Positions 24,046 to 30,269 of a stretch of DNA of 64,000 nt are shown here, in pieces. A program made the translations under genes and the position numbers. The stretch spans positions 1 through 64,000 of the forward strand of contig NZ_ML703269.1 in the NCBI RefSeq assembly GCF_008520305.1. The letters run 5' to 3'. The first letter of the stretch is position 1. Every line of letters begins with the position of its first letter. The notes under the pieces were generated by a model. It worked only from the letters and a program-made list of their open reading frames with translations, did no database searches and was not told the DNA's origin. The stretch is from Mesorhizobium sp. SARCC-RB16n. GTDB taxonomy: Bacteria > Pseudomonadota > Alphaproteobacteria > Rhizobiales > Rhizobiaceae.

Positions 24046-24800
24046 GCCTGGGCTCCAGCCACGCCAGGCCTGCCGGACCAGCCGGCGACCAGCACGATGG
24101 CAAAATAGGGCGCCTTGTCGTCCAGCTTGTCGGCAAGCTTCATCGAGACGCTGCCGGCCATGGTGCCGCGCTCGACATAGACAGCGCGCGTCAGTTTGCC
24201 GGTCGCCTCCAGCGCGCGCCTGATCTTGGGCAGGTTGCGGCCGACCTTCATGATGACGGCGGCATCGGTGTCGGCCAGCCGGCGCGTCAATTCAAACTCG
24301 CTCATCGTGCCGGGCAGGACCGTCAGCACGTCGTCGCCCTGGACGATCGGTACACCGGTCTGCGACCAGCAGCCGGACATGGCGGTGACGCCGGGAATGA
24401 CCTCGGTCGGGAAACGATGGGCGAGGCGGACATGCAGGTGCATGTAGGAGCCATAGAACAGCGGATCGCCTTCGGACAGCACGGCAACGATCTTGCCTGC
24501 GTCGAGGTGCTCGGCGACCCTGTCGGCCGACTCTTCGTAGAAACCGGCGATTTGCGACCGGTAATCGTCGTGATCCTTGTCAATCTCGGTGGTGACGGGA
24601 TAGAGCAGCGGCAGTTCCAGCATGTCGGGCCGGAAGCGCGCTTCGACGATGGCGCGCGCGTTGCTGTTGTTGCCGCGCTTGGCGAAATAGGCCACGACAT
24701 CGGCCTCGGCCAAGGCTCGCGCGGCCTTCAGCGTCAACAATTCGGGGTCGCCCGGACCGGTGCCGACACCGACAAGCCTGCCTTTGGAAATTGCGTTCAC
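24042..24800 (-). CDS. cobI: Precorrin-2 C20-methyltransferase
   Basis: A 252-residue S-adenosylmethionine-dependent methylase adding the C20 methyl that is later expelled during ring contraction. GRLVGVGTGPGDPELLTLKAARAL, LSEGDPLFYGSYMHLHVRL and VIPGVTAMSGCWSQTGVP are diagnostic of CobI/CbiL. Overlaps cobH and cobJ by 4 bases each. Confidence 0.96.
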   Translation of the reverse strand: MNAISKGRLVGVGTGPGDPELLTLKAARALAEADVVAYFAKRGNNSNARAIVEARFRPDMLELPLLYPVTTEIDKDHDDYRSQIAGFYEESADRVAEHLDAGKIVAVLSEGDPLFYGSYMHLHVRLAHRFPTEVIPGVTAMSGCWSQTGVPIVQGDDVLTVLPGTMSEFELTRRLADTDAAVIMKVGRNLPKIRRALEATGKLTRAVYVERGTMAGSVSMKLADKLDDKAPYFAIVLVAGWSGRPGVAGAQA

Positions 24801-25435
24801 AGGCCCGGCCTCGCCAGTGAATTGAGCGCGGCGGCGGTCATGGCGCTACCGCCAAGCCTGCCGCGGACGATGGCGTAGGGAACGCCATAGGAATTTTCGG
24901 CCAGCGCATCCTTGGATTCGGCGGCACCGACAAAACCGACCGGCATGCCGATAATGGCGGCCGGCTTAGGCGCGCCATCGCGTAGTTTTTCCAGCAGGTA
25001 GAAGAGCGCGGTCGGCGCATTGCCGATAGCGATAACCGAACTGGCCATGCGCTCGCCCCACAGGTCGATCGCGGCAGCCGATCGGGTGTTGCCGATCTCC
25101 CTGGCGATGTCGTGCGTGCGCTGGTCGCGCAAGGTGCAGATCACCTCATTGCCGGCCGGCAGCCGGGCACGCGTCACGCCATGCGAGACCATTTCAGCAT
25201 CGCAGAAGATCGGCGCGCCGGCGGCAAGTGCTTTGCGCGCGGCGGTGACGAAATCGGGGGAGAAAACAAAATGACTTGCTGCCTCGACCTGGCCGCAGGC
25301 ATGGATCATGCGGATGGCGACATCGGCCTCGGCTTCCGAGAAGCGCGACAGGTCAGCCTCGGCGCGGATGATGGCGAAGGAGCGCTCGTAGATCGCCGTG
25401 CCGTCGTGGATGTAGTCGTAGGCGGCCATGCTCAT
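24797..25435 (-). CDS. cobH: Precorrin-8X methylmutase
   Basis: A 212-residue methylmutase that moves the C11 methyl to C12, giving hydrogenobyrinate. YDYIHDGTAIYERSFAIIRAE at the N-terminus and the MIHACGQVEAASH block, with the catalytic His, are family hallmarks; GMPVGFVGAAESK and the C-terminal GRLGGSAMTAAALNSL are also present. The ATG at 25435 overlaps the cobG stop (ATGA). Confidence 0.97.
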   Translation of the reverse strand: MSMAAYDYIHDGTAIYERSFAIIRAEADLSRFSEAEADVAIRMIHACGQVEAASHFVFSPDFVTAARKALAAGAPIFCDAEMVSHGVTRARLPAGNEVICTLRDQRTHDIAREIGNTRSAAAIDLWGERMASSVIAIGNAPTALFYLLEKLRDGAPKPAAIIGMPVGFVGAAESKDALAENSYGVPYAIVRGRLGGSAMTAAALNSLARPGL

Positions 25436-26898
25436 TCCTGTTGGTAAGCCTCGGCGATGCCCGCCGTGCCAAGCCTTGTCAGGCAGGCGGCGGCGGTTTC
25501 GCCGGGAAGTCGTGCGCTGTGGATCACCGCCGCGACGCGGCTGATGCCGCGCGCGGCGTCATAGCCCGGCCTGTAGCCGGCAGGAAGAGTCTTTGCCGTC
25601 GCGTTCACGACAAGTCCGGCTCCGTTTTCGCCGCCGACCAAAGTCAGCGCCGCCGGACCCGGATGCGCGCAGCCTTTTGCGCAGCCGGAGACATGTAGCG
25701 TGAAGTCGAGACTATCGGCGTTTTCGGCGGCGATTGCCTCGGCGATGTCGCGGGTCGCGATGCGGCCGGAGGCGCAGGCAGGTGTGCCGGGACAAGCGGC
25801 GATGCGCGTGCGTGGGTCGGCGGGGGAGGTGACGAAGCCGAAGGTGGTGGCCACCTGTTGAAGCGAATGGCAAGCGCCGGCAGTCAGGCCGAGGAAAAGC
25901 AGCGCGCGGCCAGGTGCTAGGCGGATTTCGGTCGCACCGAGAGTGAGGCCGGTTTGCGCGAGGACAATGATCTTGCCTGCTGGCATGCTACCATACGGCA
26001 GCCCGATGCCGAGGGCATGGCCGTCATTTAGATTGAAGAGGCTGATTGATAGGCGACTGCGCTCTACGGCGCCCCCCTCTGTCCTGCCGGATATCTCCCC
26101 CACGAGGGGGGAGATTGCGCTGTTATCGCTGTCTTCGCCAATTTTCGACGTTGAAAGGGAAGTGCTGGCGGCAAAGCTGCCGATCTCCCCCCTCGTGGGG
26201 GAGATATCCGGCAGGACAGAGGGGGGCGCCACAGAATGCCAGCCTGCGAGAGAATTGAGTTGCCGCTCCGACAAATCTCGTGAGTGCGCCTCGAGGCCCT
26301 TTTCGGCGACCATCCTGAGTGCAGCGACGGCTATGTCTCTTGCGGCATCCGCATCGACTGTTGCCAACACCTTCGCGTTTCGGCCGTCGCCGGCAACCGA
26401 TACGCTCCAAACGATGTTGTTGTCGGCTCGCACCGCAACAAGCCGCACATCGGCCGTCACCGCGTCCAGCGTCAGTTGCCCGCCGCCGTCGACGATCACC
26501 GAAACCTTTGGTCCGAGCCGCTGCGTCAGCCCGGCTTCTTCGACTGCCATCCGAATGCGCTCAGCCATCGGCCGCGGATCGGCAATCTCCCGCGGGTCGA
26601 CGCCAGCCAGCGGGCCGGTCTCCACCGGCACGCCGGTGCGCACCGCGATGCCCAATGCATCGACCTCCGCCGCCAGCAACACAGCGCTTTCCGTTGTGAG
26701 CCCGCGGATCTGCAGGCTGCCGCGGGCCGTCACCTCCATGATGCCGTTGCCGTGGCGCAAGGCGGATTCGGCCAAACCGATCAAGAGCTTCGGCGATAGG
26801 CCTCCGGCGACCGGATTGAGCCGCACCAGCAGGCCGTCGCCCGTCTGCATCGGTGCCGACAAAGCGGGGCAGGCGCCACGGCGCGAGACGGCGTTCAT
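25432..26898 (-). CDS. cobG: Precorrin-3B synthase with in-frame palindromic insertion
   Basis: A 488-residue CobG, the oxygen-dependent enzyme that makes precorrin-3B and marks the aerobic pathway. It has two nitrite/sulfite-reductase half-domains and the 4Fe-4S ligands in AACPGTPACASG and HVSGCAKGCAHPG. Residues about 223-277 are not CobG sequence: they are translated from a 163-bp palindromic repeat (26068-26230) and read VAPPSVLPDISPTRGEIG ... AISPLVGEISGRTEGGAV, peptides I recognise as translations of a rhizobial repeat. The frame stays open through it and the cofactor motifs downstream are intact, so the protein may remain functional with an extra surface loop. Confidence 0.93.
   Translation of the reverse strand: MNAVSRRGACPALSAPMQTGDGLLVRLNPVAGGLSPKLLIGLAESALRHGNGIMEVTARGSLQIRGLTTESAVLLAAEVDALGIAVRTGVPVETGPLAGVDPREIADPRPMAERIRMAVEEAGLTQRLGPKVSVIVDGGGQLTLDAVTADVRLVAVRADNNIVWSVSVAGDGRNAKVLATVDADAARDIAVAALRMVAEKGLEAHSRDLSERQLNSLAGWHSVAPPSVLPDISPTRGEIGSFAASTSLSTSKIGEDSDNSAISPLVGEISGRTEGGAVERSRLSISLFNLNDGHALGIGLPYGSMPAGKIIVLAQTGLTLGATEIRLAPGRALLFLGLTAGACHSLQQVATTFGFVTSPADPRTRIAACPGTPACASGRIATRDIAEAIAAENADSLDFTLHVSGCAKGCAHPGPAALTLVGGENGAGLVVNATAKTLPAGYRPGYDAARGISRVAAVIHSARLPGETAAACLTRLGTAGIAEAYQQE
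26068..26230. repeat. 163-bp inverted-repeat element inside cobG
   Basis: Two 48-base arms, 26068-26115 and 26183-26230, are exact reverse complements of each other, separated by 67 bases. Each arm also contains its own smaller hairpin (CTCCCCCxCGxGGGGGAG type). The layout resembles the palindromic mosaic repeats scattered through rhizobial chromosomes, normally intergenic. Here it is inside a coding sequence and open in the cobG frame. No second copy was noticed in the window. Confidence 0.88.
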
Positions 26899-29800
26899 GC
26901 CGCTACCCCGAGCGCTTCCGCCTCGGCAATCAGCGCGGCGAGATCGTCGTCGATGGAATTGCGCAAGGGATGCCAGAGGCCGCGCCGGCGCGCCGACAGG
27001 AAGCGCTCGGCGATGACTTTGGCGGCTGCGGGATTTTCGCGCAGGATGAAGGCGCGAACGTTCGGATCGCCGAGATAGGCATCGTGCACGGCCTCGATCA
27101 GCGCGCCTGAAATGGCATGGGTGGTCTCGGCGAAGCCGACCAGCCGGTCGACGGTTTCGGCGAATTCGGAGGCGCCGCGCGGGCCGTGGCGCATTTGCCC
27201 TGATATGAACCGGGCGTTGACGGCACGGGCACGCACCACGCGCGACACCGCCTCGCCGACCGAGCGCGGCTTCGGCTTCTGCGGATCCGTGGTGTCGAGC
27301 ACGATGACGTCGGCGTTCCTGCCGAGCGTGGCCAAGGCGGCCGAAAAGCCGCCGATGAAGGCGACGTCAGCGGAGCCTTCGAGGATGTCGCGGCCGGGGT
27401 CGTCGCCGGTGTGGACAAGAAGATCGGCTTCGGCGATGCGGCCCTCGAAAGCGCCGGGCGCCGAGATGCCTTCGCCGCCGGCACCGCCATAGGCGTGCGA
27501 GGTGGAGTCGAGATAGGCGCGGCCGATTTCTTCCCGCGCTGTCCAGTCGCCGCTCGACAAAAGTTCCTCGACGCCGGCGCCGTAAGTGCCGGGCGAGGTG
27601 CCGAAGATGCGCGGGCTGACCTTGCCGTCGGCTCGGGTCCTGGCGGCGAGCGGGTTTTCCGAATCGTCCTCGTCGCGTGCAGCAACGGCTTTGGCGGCGG
27701 CGTCGATCAGGGCGATCTGGGTCGGAAACATGTCGCGGAACAGCCCCGATATGCGCCAGGTCACGTCGACGCGCGGGCGGCCGAGCGTAGCCGGTGGGAG
27801 CACTTCGATGCCGGTGATGCGGCCGGTGGCAGTGTCCCATTGCGGCCGACAGCCCATCAGCGCCAGGCCCTGCGCAATCTCCTCGCCACCGGTGCGCAGC
27901 GAGGCCGAGCCCCAGAGGTCTGTCACCAGCGAGCGCGGCCAGTCGCCGCGCGATTGCATGTAGCCGCGTATGACTTCCTCGGCAGCCGCCTTGCCAAGGT
28001 CATAGGCGGTCGGCGTCGGCATGGTGCGCGGATCCGAGGTGAACAGGTTGCGGCCGGTGGGCAAGACATCGGAGCGGCCGCGCGCGGGCGCGCCGGCCGG
28101 GCCTGCCTTGACGTGACGGCCATCGAGCGCGGCGAATAGCGCCGCCTTCTCGGCTTCCGCGCTTTGCCGGCGCATAGTGTCAAGCTCGTCGTCAGCGACG
28201 CGGCCGTAGACATGCAGCCCGTCCTTGATGGCGAAATCCTTGAGGTCGCAGAGCCAGGCGTCGATGCGGCGCAGTGCCTCGTCGGGCGCGTCGGTCTCGG
28301 CGATGCCGGCTTCGGAGGCGAGGCCGGTCTTTTGCGCGGTGTCGACGATCAGCCTGGCGAGACGGTCGCGGCGGCGGCGGTCGAGCCCGTCGGCCTGGGC
28401 ATATTCGTCGACCAGCCGTTCGAGCTTATGCTGGCCCTCGTCCAGTCCGGCGCCTGTCAGCCGCGGCGGCAGATGGCCAAGCGTGACGGCGGCAATGCGC
28501 CGCTTGGCCTGCGCTGCTTCGCCGGGGTTGGAGACGATGAAGGGATAGATGACGGGCAGGGAGCCGGTGACGATCTCGGGGAAGCAGTTTTGCGAGAGCG
28601 CAACGGTCTTGCCGGGTAGCCATTCCAGCGTGCCGTGGGCGCCGACATGGATGAGTGCGTGGACGCTGAGCGATTTGCGCAGCCAGAGGCCGAAGGCGAG
28701 GAGCGCATGGCGCGGCGGGAGCGTCGGGTCGTGATAGTCGGCGCGGCGATCGGCGGAGCGTCCGCGATCGGGGGCGAGGGCCACGGTGATGTTGCCGAAA
28801 TTCGCGGCGTGGAAGGGGAAGTGTTTCTTGCTTGATTGCGAAGGTTTGCGCTCGCGAAGACCTGTCTCATCTTCCGCTCTGCCCCAGGCAGCGTCTACCG
28901 CAGCAATTGCCGCTGACGGCAACTCAGTCGAAAAGGAGTAATAGTCGTCCAGCCTCAGCCCATGATTGCCGCGTTCCAGCAAATCCAGCAATTCACGCGG
29001 CGTTTGCGGAATCCCTTCAACGACATAGCCCTGTTCGCTCAAGTCATGCAGCATGCCCAGCACGCTGGACGGAACATCCAGCCCGACCGCGTAGCCGGTT
29101 CGGCCAGGTGCGCTGGGATAATCGGGGATCAGGATCGCGAGCTTGCGTTCGGCGCGCGCGGTCCCCCGCAAACGGATGAAGGCCGCCACGCGCTTGGCTA
29201 CTTGCTCTACACGATCCGCTTCCGGCCGGTTGGCCAAGGCACGGTGGCCAAGCGCCGGGTCGACATCGCTCTCGCCCTTGAAGGAAATGGCGCCGGCAAG
29301 GATGCGGCCGTCGAGCTCTGGCAGCACGACATGCATGGCAAGGTCGGCGGGGGCGAGCCCGCGCTGGTTGTTTTCCCAGATATCGCGGCGGGTGGTGGCG
29401 ACGATGATCTGGAAGACAGGCACGCCAGCGCGGTCGAACAGGGTTTCCACGCCGGGCTCGGCGCCGGACGCGAAAGCGGTCGCGGTGATGATGGCGGCCG
29501 GTTTCAGCGATGCTATGGCAGTTTCGACGAACGCCAGGGACACCAGGTCCTTGAGACTGGAAACGAAGATCGGGACCGGTGCCAGTCCCTGAGAGTGCAA
29601 AGCCTCGGCCAAGGCATCGATCGGGGCGACATCGGCTGCAAGCAGCATCGATCGGTAAAAGAGAATCGGGATGACGGGAGCGCCGACATTTGAAAGGTCC
29701 GGCTCCTCCGCGACACCCAATCCAGGCTGATAGTAGCCGGCCTTTGGCACGCTGACCGGGTTGGCGACGGGCCTGTCCTGTCCAATCAGTCCTGCCAGCC

Positions 29801-30269
29801 TGTGCACCAGCGCACTCATATTGGCCGGGCCGCCCTCGCGGAAATAGCCGAGCAGGCCGTCGAGTTCGGCGCGCGGCAGCGTCGAGGCTTCGATCAGCCG
29901 GAGATCCTCGTCATGGCTTTCACCGGGAAGCAACGCCAGTCTTATGCCGTGCTCGCGGGCAATTGCCGAGAGCTGGTCGCAGCCATAGCGCCACCAGTCG
30001 TAGCCGCCGAGGATGCGCACCAGGATGACCTTGGCATGGCGGGCGACGCTGTCGATCCAGAGATCGACGGACATGGGATGGCGCAGGTCGCGCAGTGCCG
30101 CGAGCCGCATCGAGGGCAAGCGATCGGCGTCGGCCTTCCATGCAGCCGCCAGTCCGGCGAGATCGCTGTCGGTGAAGGACAGCGCCACGATATCCGCCGG
30201 CGCCTGCCGCAGGTCGACCGGCTCGGCGAGGTCGTCGAGCGAGGCGGAGGTCGTGGTGAGGATGTGCAT
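26895..30269 (-). CDS. cobN: Cobaltochelatase large subunit CobN
   Basis: The 1124-residue ATP-dependent cobaltochelatase subunit that binds hydrogenobyrinate a,c-diamide and inserts Co2+, working with CobS/CobT-type AAA+ and integrin-like subunits not in this window. Chelatase blocks are clear: GGYDWWRYG, HVGAHGTLEWLPGKTVALS, GRSDVLPTGRNLF, GTSPGTYGAGVEELL and the C-terminal MRHGPRGASEFAE. From memory of P. denitrificans CobN (about 1275 aa), this is some 150 residues short; the shortening seems to lie between GLHVYG (about 683) and ALDGRHV (about 714). Ends read as complete. Overlaps cobG by 4 bases. Confidence 0.95.
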   Translation of the reverse strand: MHILTTTSASLDDLAEPVDLRQAPADIVALSFTDSDLAGLAAAWKADADRLPSMRLAALRDLRHPMSVDLWIDSVARHAKVILVRILGGYDWWRYGCDQLSAIAREHGIRLALLPGESHDEDLRLIEASTLPRAELDGLLGYFREGGPANMSALVHRLAGLIGQDRPVANPVSVPKAGYYQPGLGVAEEPDLSNVGAPVIPILFYRSMLLAADVAPIDALAEALHSQGLAPVPIFVSSLKDLVSLAFVETAIASLKPAAIITATAFASGAEPGVETLFDRAGVPVFQIIVATTRRDIWENNQRGLAPADLAMHVVLPELDGRILAGAISFKGESDVDPALGHRALANRPEADRVEQVAKRVAAFIRLRGTARAERKLAILIPDYPSAPGRTGYAVGLDVPSSVLGMLHDLSEQGYVVEGIPQTPRELLDLLERGNHGLRLDDYYSFSTELPSAAIAAVDAAWGRAEDETGLRERKPSQSSKKHFPFHAANFGNITVALAPDRGRSADRRADYHDPTLPPRHALLAFGLWLRKSLSVHALIHVGAHGTLEWLPGKTVALSQNCFPEIVTGSLPVIYPFIVSNPGEAAQAKRRIAAVTLGHLPPRLTGAGLDEGQHKLERLVDEYAQADGLDRRRRDRLARLIVDTAQKTGLASEAGIAETDAPDEALRRIDAWLCDLKDFAIKDGLHVYGRVADDELDTMRRQSAEAEKAALFAALDGRHVKAGPAGAPARGRSDVLPTGRNLFTSDPRTMPTPTAYDLGKAAAEEVIRGYMQSRGDWPRSLVTDLWGSASLRTGGEEIAQGLALMGCRPQWDTATGRITGIEVLPPATLGRPRVDVTWRISGLFRDMFPTQIALIDAAAKAVAARDEDDSENPLAARTRADGKVSPRIFGTSPGTYGAGVEELLSSGDWTAREEIGRAYLDSTSHAYGGAGGEGISAPGAFEGRIAEADLLVHTGDDPGRDILEGSADVAFIGGFSAALATLGRNADVIVLDTTDPQKPKPRSVGEAVSRVVRARAVNARFISGQMRHGPRGASEFAETVDRLVGFAETTHAISGALIEAVHDAYLGDPNVRAFILRENPAAAKVIAERFLSARRRGLWHPLRNSIDDDLAALIAEAEALGVAA

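Follow-up and report, generated by a model that had tools for sequence, protein, structure and literature searches.

Protein-coding palindromes are reportedly, in the wording of a title by Ogata from 2002, a unique feature of Rickettsia. Among rhizobia, the Rhizobium intergenic mosaic elements (RIME) are palindromic repeats of mosaic make-up located between genes. Compared with this description, the element reported here differs in being coding.

The Rickettsia palindromic elements (RPEs) are described as inserts of ~100–150 bp in unrelated genes, whose frame they leave unbroken (PMC3767692, PMC10969869). According to the account given in PMC3767692, the position of the insert is shared between orthologs, and the identity of the repeats is stated to be lost with time (PMC6649704, citing Claverie and Ogata 2003). 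Coding inverted repeats with maintained arms are also described in nematomorph mitochondrial genes, for which template switching was proposed (PMC6649704). In the case of the Correia elements of Neisseria (MITE), a bacterial repeat is reported to invert (PMC10969869).

In the window, that is, the whole stretch of 64,000 nucleotides analyzed in this work (Mesorhizobium sp. SARCC-RB16n), a palindrome is located within cobG. By description, it is similar to the RPEs and the Wolbachia palindromic elements, since in all of them a palindrome is found in unrelated genes, the frame is kept, and the site is common to orthologs. The size of the element (~160 nt), its multiple copies, and its in-frame presence in several unrelated genes are likewise those of an RPE, and the parallel with Rickettsia drawn by the earlier note is a fair one as an analogy. 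The differences are that the host belongs to Rhizobiales and not to Rickettsiales, that the spacer of the rhizobial element inverts, and that its arms stay complementary, whereas RPE arms are described to lose their identity; arm decay after insertion was not seen here, as arm identity remains at ~0.92 in all but one of the seven bins into which the pairs were sorted by the divergence of the gene. With the nematomorph palindromes, the element shares the coding inverted repeats and the upkeep of their arms. On the contrary, the nematomorph ones lie in conserved protein regions, and the account of PMC6649704 does not present them as one multicopy element; the word “inversion” occurs 0 times in that article. 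The Correia elements carry promoters and are mostly situated upstream of genes in the description of PMC10969869, whereas the rhizobial spacer is translated, in frame, as part of a protein. As in a MITE, inverted repeats (the 48-bp arms) are found at the ends of the element, although its exact ends are not fixed, and as in invertible DNA, inverted repeats surround a segment which is found both ways, in this case between species only.

The in-place inversion of the spacer, the upkeep and co-variation of the arms, and a linker which accepts unrelated repeats are the new features of this system. No earlier description of a coding palindrome of this type in rhizobia was found in the open-licence literature searched.

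The palindrome within cobG

The features of the locus are the following:
24797..25435, minus strand: ORF downstream of cobG, putative cobH, named from its position and in the earlier note
25432..26898, minus strand: cobG, precorrin-3B synthase, 488 aa in a single intact frame
26895..30269, minus strand: cobN, upstream of cobG in the operon
26061..26068, no strand assigned: outer end GCTCTACG (read inward), with one base common with the arm
26068..26115, minus strand: C-terminal-side arm, 48 nt, peptide ISPLVGEISGRTEGGA
26093..26115, no strand assigned: internal hairpin, fold within the arm 26068-26115
26116..26182, minus strand: spacer (loop), 67 nt, encoding ~22 residues
26183..26230, minus strand: N-terminal-side arm, 48 nt, perfect complement of the other arm, peptide APPSVLPDISPTRGEI
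26183..26205, no strand assigned: internal hairpin, fold within the arm 26183-26230
26230..26237, no strand assigned: outer end ATTCTGTG (read inward), of another type, with one base common with the arm

The identity of CobG was supported by a profile search (TIGR02435, 438.8 bits vs a cut-off of 234.8). The perfectly complementary 48-bp arms with internal hairpins, which had been noticed from the letters of the sequence, were confirmed at 26068-26115 and 26183-26230; they are the inner part of 53-nt arms (26063-26115 and 26183-26235) with 96% complementarity. As had also been claimed, the element is translated in the intact cobG frame, as approximately residues 223-277 (PPSVLPDISPTRGEI...ISPLVGEISGRTEGG). 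The two halves of the protein are matched by Pfam at residues 16-184 (PF03460/PF01077) and 293-420 (nitrite reductase match), and the element, placed between them, is therefore an insert of the interdomain linker. The reading of the window spacer in this frame is open on both strands. An antisense ORF of 357 aa (25943-27016, plus strand) crosses the palindrome, and its product contains the arm peptides found in CobG; it is probably incidental.

The fold of the palindrome is far beyond chance. For the coding strand, an RNA fold of -148.1 kcal/mol was computed (z = -15.4), which was equaled by none of 200 shuffles, and the hairpin in the cob mRNA that the earlier note had proposed is accordingly a predicted one. 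In Rfam, the element matches miRNA models only, below their gathering scores (best 47.9 bits vs 84); membership of an Rfam family was rejected, and such sub-threshold scores may be given by a long hairpin.

No second copy was detected in the window with the 25-nt core of the arm and up to 5 mismatches, and the cobN of the window is without the element. The two outer ends of the window copy differ, as GCTCTACG and ATTCTGTG are separate types.

Distribution in the CobG linker, in genomes, and in other genes

The genus survey covered 144 genomes of Mesorhizobium, the genus of the nearest relative examined (G001), and CobG was found in 142 of them. One CobG locus per genome was taken from 137 genomes, with the exclusion of five partial-match genomes (G080, G082, G098, G101, and G121), and the 135 loci in which both CobG halves were recovered form the base of the tally. 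A further 80 loci from an earlier search were kept out, since one of its search patterns derived from the query’s own insert.

The full element is located at the CobG site in 101 of the 135 genomes (102 of 136 with the window). A shorter piece only, defined by an exact arm match of at least 15 nt and here measuring 15–26 nt, is found in 20; these pieces are mostly readable as scars, while that of L245 is rather a short palindrome. The remaining 14 genomes have neither; among these, L229 shows a weak scar, and the linker of L208 is occupied by a different repeat. Shorter pieces and absences, which amount to 34/135 genomes, speak against a needed function.

The frame of the linker is open in 131 of the 135 genomes, among them L223, where most of the element is read in another frame. 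It is broken in four (L183, L209, L212, and L217), with the breaks in or just after the linker. The selection for a readable frame suggested in the earlier note is supported by this only trivially, insofar as cobG has to remain an open frame. A decaying allele, which the same note had named as a possible objection, does not apply to the window, whose cobG frame is intact.

In the family-wide search of 247 genomes, CobG was detected (E ≤ 1e-60) in 38, of which four belong to the genus. Among the 34 CobG loci of other genera, 12 contain an exact arm match of at least 30 nt and 11 passed a two-arm test (up to 16 mismatches per arm). The CobG relatives bearing the element are named Mesorhizobium, Aminobacter, Pseudaminobacter, and Oryzicola. 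The occurrence of the same residues in distant taxa had been proposed as a sign against an insertion. Such residues do occur in other genera, but the DNA palindrome is present there too, which indicates an older or a repeated insertion and not a native segment of CobG. One ancient insertion for all the genera was considered and set aside, as the loops are too diverged to tell. Mean loop identity is 0.649 among cobG copies and 0.648 between cobG and genomic copies; the loops, therefore, do not prove deep common descent of a single insertion.

The claim that the element is a multicopy repeat of the group was borne out by the genomes of G001 and G039, with about 40 scored copies in each. Each genome gave 80 matches with both strands counted, from the best 40 of 97 and 142 candidates, respectively. 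The 58 genomic copies taken from the loci listed for these two genomes have the same arms and loops of 62–65 nt; they are the best-scoring ones, so that other loop types may be missed. Their outer ends are of recurring types, the most frequent being GCTCTACG (14 of 116 ends).

A search for copies inside other ORFs, which had been advised, revealed in-frame members of the family in three further genes of the relatives, namely cobN, an ABC-ATPase gene, and a nitrate-reductase-like ORF. In CobN of G001 and G039, the element is in frame at a linker. Of ten hand-picked CobN linkers, seven have the element, two an apparently different repeat, and one none; single alignments across this site were not scored as presence, as L363 and L364 held another sequence. 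Similarly, seven out of eight picked ABC-ATPase linkers carry the element and one does not, a ninth locus being excluded because it is cut by a contig end. In the nitrate-reductase-like ORF of G039 (L291), the copy is placed between the molybdopterin oxidoreductase and the dinucleotide-binding domains, and its left arm is read in a different frame than in cobG. Several other genomic copies are spanned by long ORFs which were left out of the list of genes: those of L338 and L339 have no Pfam match, and in those of L281, L024, and L335 the element precedes the conserved domain.

In L301, L305, and L208, palindromes of other sequence are inserted in frame in the CobG linker. Searched in the genomes from which they come, the palindromes of L301 and L208 proved to be multicopy (28 and 92 matches, respectively, with strands counted apart). 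The linker is therefore a site at which insertions are tolerated. As side observations, the different repeat-like sequence in the CobN linkers of L363 and L364 is also in frame (peptide with LSPSLRGEGKGEG), and CobN of G039 (L267) has, at approximately residues 170-225 of its translated part, a stretch which is missing from the window CobN and resembles another translated repeat.

Arms and spacer at the DNA level

Mean arm identity is 0.92–0.93 in six of the seven bins of flank divergence, while the identity of flank third positions spans 0.57–0.71; only for the 2% of pairs that are most distant is arm identity down to 0.69. Third codon positions inside the arms show an identity of 0.88–0.90. 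Being about as constant as the rest, they do not point to the peptide as the cause of the conservation.

Spacers and co-variation were studied in the window and 94 genomes, which together provide 95 copies whose two arms could be measured; seven further full copies, in which the arms are gapped, nested, or masked, were set aside. Paired arm positions co-vary, with the limit that the shuffles ignore the kinship of the copies: position 33 is matched in 87/95 (shuffle mean 36.5, maximum 51), position 2 in 87/95 (52.0, 66), position 7 in 89/95 (75.5, 85), and position 35 in 60/95 (38.3, 53). Position 0 only equals the shuffle maximum (77), and positions 36 and 47 are within chance. One C-to-T change is private to the window, where it is found in the two arms alike. 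Rare arm states were encountered 96 times in one arm and five times in both; rapid arm-to-arm conversion was rejected on this basis. Since conversion does not act on each new mutation, homogenization with genomic copies, selection on the DNA or RNA of the arms, or both are needed.

The spacer, on the contrary, varies freely and is found in both orientations. For instance, the window spacer and that of L113 are 92% identical after turning one of them, i.e., they are in opposite orientation. Spacers of equal length form 32 pairs with an identity of 90% or more; orientation agrees in 21 of these pairs and is opposite in 11, for which the unturned identity is 0.58–0.68. The element of L115 is matched in G109 and G122 as two pieces on opposite strands, which is the mark of an inversion. 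In the 35 cobG copies with long loops (80–92 nt), the extra stretch is co-located after turning, with 19 and 16 copies in the respective orientations; a few copies about as long as this type also exist outside cobG (G068:C34:320575-320751 and G113:C6:7895-8073). Judged from these sequences, several in-place inversions of the cobG spacer separate the species, with the gene staying readable.

The cobG tree, with one genome per species, requires 28 changes of orientation, compared with a mean of 31.9 and a minimum of 24 after shuffling. Orientation, therefore, hardly follows descent, a result which fits frequent flips and also allele exchange; exchange between species may add to the scatter. Similarly to cobG, CobN copies are divided in seven of one orientation and two of the other, with one opposite pair at 0.89 identity, and the ABC gene copies in eight and one. 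The respective counts for genomic copies (32/26) were discarded as meaningless, because their strand is arbitrary.

All of the intact copies (92 of the 95) are open in sense, and 80 of these 92 would remain open after a spacer flip, so that an inversion would seldom break the gene. The other two antisense frames are open in 61/92 and 34/92 copies (Fisher p = 0.0015 and 2e-12 vs 80/92). When mononucleotides are shuffled, 42 flipped frames are open, fewer than observed, but shuffling of codons gives 83.4; selection for antisense openness is thus not supported. Division of the spacer length by three leaves a remainder of 2 in 93 of the 95 cobG copies, compared with 17 of the 58 genomic ones.

Origin and persistence of the element

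The explanation which is considered probable is that of a selfish or neutral multicopy (MITE-like) coding palindrome of Mesorhizobium and its kin, tolerated in the interdomain linker of CobG, with its arms kept by DNA-level processes and its spacer flipped via the palindrome. CobG would bear the extra residues because the linker is presumably exposed and flexible. The inversion may proceed through template switching during replication or through recombination of the two inverted arms within one molecule. The arms may be kept by conversion (between themselves and with genomic copies), or the hairpin may be under selection as DNA or RNA. For CobG, the net effect would be close to neutral, and the element would persist since its removal must be in frame. 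With approximately 100 copies at one site of a B12 gene, accompanied by shorter pieces, inversions, and replacements, in a free-living and symbiotic soil genus, the birth, upkeep, and loss of coding palindromes become measurable. The re-coding of a protein segment by in-place inversion is, to our knowledge, rarely documented.

A partly overlapping explanation is that the linker is a hot spot, filled by recurrent insertion or replacement and not by descent; this is possible, if on the whole doubtful, and may hold for part of the tree. It agrees with the other palindromes in the linkers of L301, L305, and L208, two of them multicopy, with outer-end types that vary as in genomic copies, and with the mean loop identity, which is the same among cobG copies as between these and genomic copies. 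L180 and L191 have close flanks (third positions 0.857), yet their loops share an identity of only 0.63. The 179-nt element of L191 illustrates both sides: its best match is cobG in four of seven genomes (own included) and another copy in three (G126, G041, and G005), but the cobG copies of G072, G113, and G103 match it at 98, 86, and 86%, whereas the other listed copies reach at most 81%. Against the hot spot, the L115 element (E ≤ 1e-32, 40 candidates scored per genome) has cobG as its sole match in five of five genomes, that is, in all four besides its own, and the nearest loop is another cobG loop in 90/95 copies, in a comparison with 58 copies from two genomes only.

A broader view of the tolerated palindrome can be offered as a speculation with rather low expectations: cobG would contain an ambidextrous, invertible coding segment, near-random in orientation with respect to the gene tree and maybe providing two CobG variants per population, and, with the linkers of other proteins behaving alike, coding palindromes would be a general generator of peptide linkers in rhizobia.

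The earlier note regarded the element as domesticated. In such a reading, the inserted peptide or the mRNA hairpin would be useful for CobG or the cob operon and kept by selection. The presence in 101/135 genomes, the constraint and co-variation of the arms at the DNA level, and the strong RNA fold are in favor of this, but it is unlikely. Besides the 20 genomes with a shorter piece only and the 14 with neither, 21 switches between presence and absence have to be placed on the cobG tree, compared with a mean of 30.7 and a minimum of 24 after shuffling. The spacer peptide is variable and read from either strand, the third codon positions of the arms are about as constant as the others, and unrelated repeats occupy the same linker elsewhere.

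Even less probable is a dedicated site-specific recombinase which flips the spacer as a phase-variation switch. The in-place inversion between species and the usually open frames of both orientations would suit it; CobN and ABC gene copies, however, are also found in both orientations, which fits a general effect of the palindrome over a switch of cobG. An assembly or sequencing artefact in the orientation or the frame of the spacer is hardly credible: four of 135 frames are broken and two of these genomes (G030 and G079) also have a short or interrupted cobN, but G039 and G109, of opposite orientations, are assembled in one and two contigs, and the 48-bp arms are shorter than common sequencing reads.

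The cobN frame is short or interrupted in G018 as well, where cobG is oddly read, and assembly indels are possibly involved in all three genomes. In L211, L223, and L312, the right arm of the element in cobG itself contains a second small sequence with its own inverted repeat, which leaves the frame unbroken in L211 and L312.
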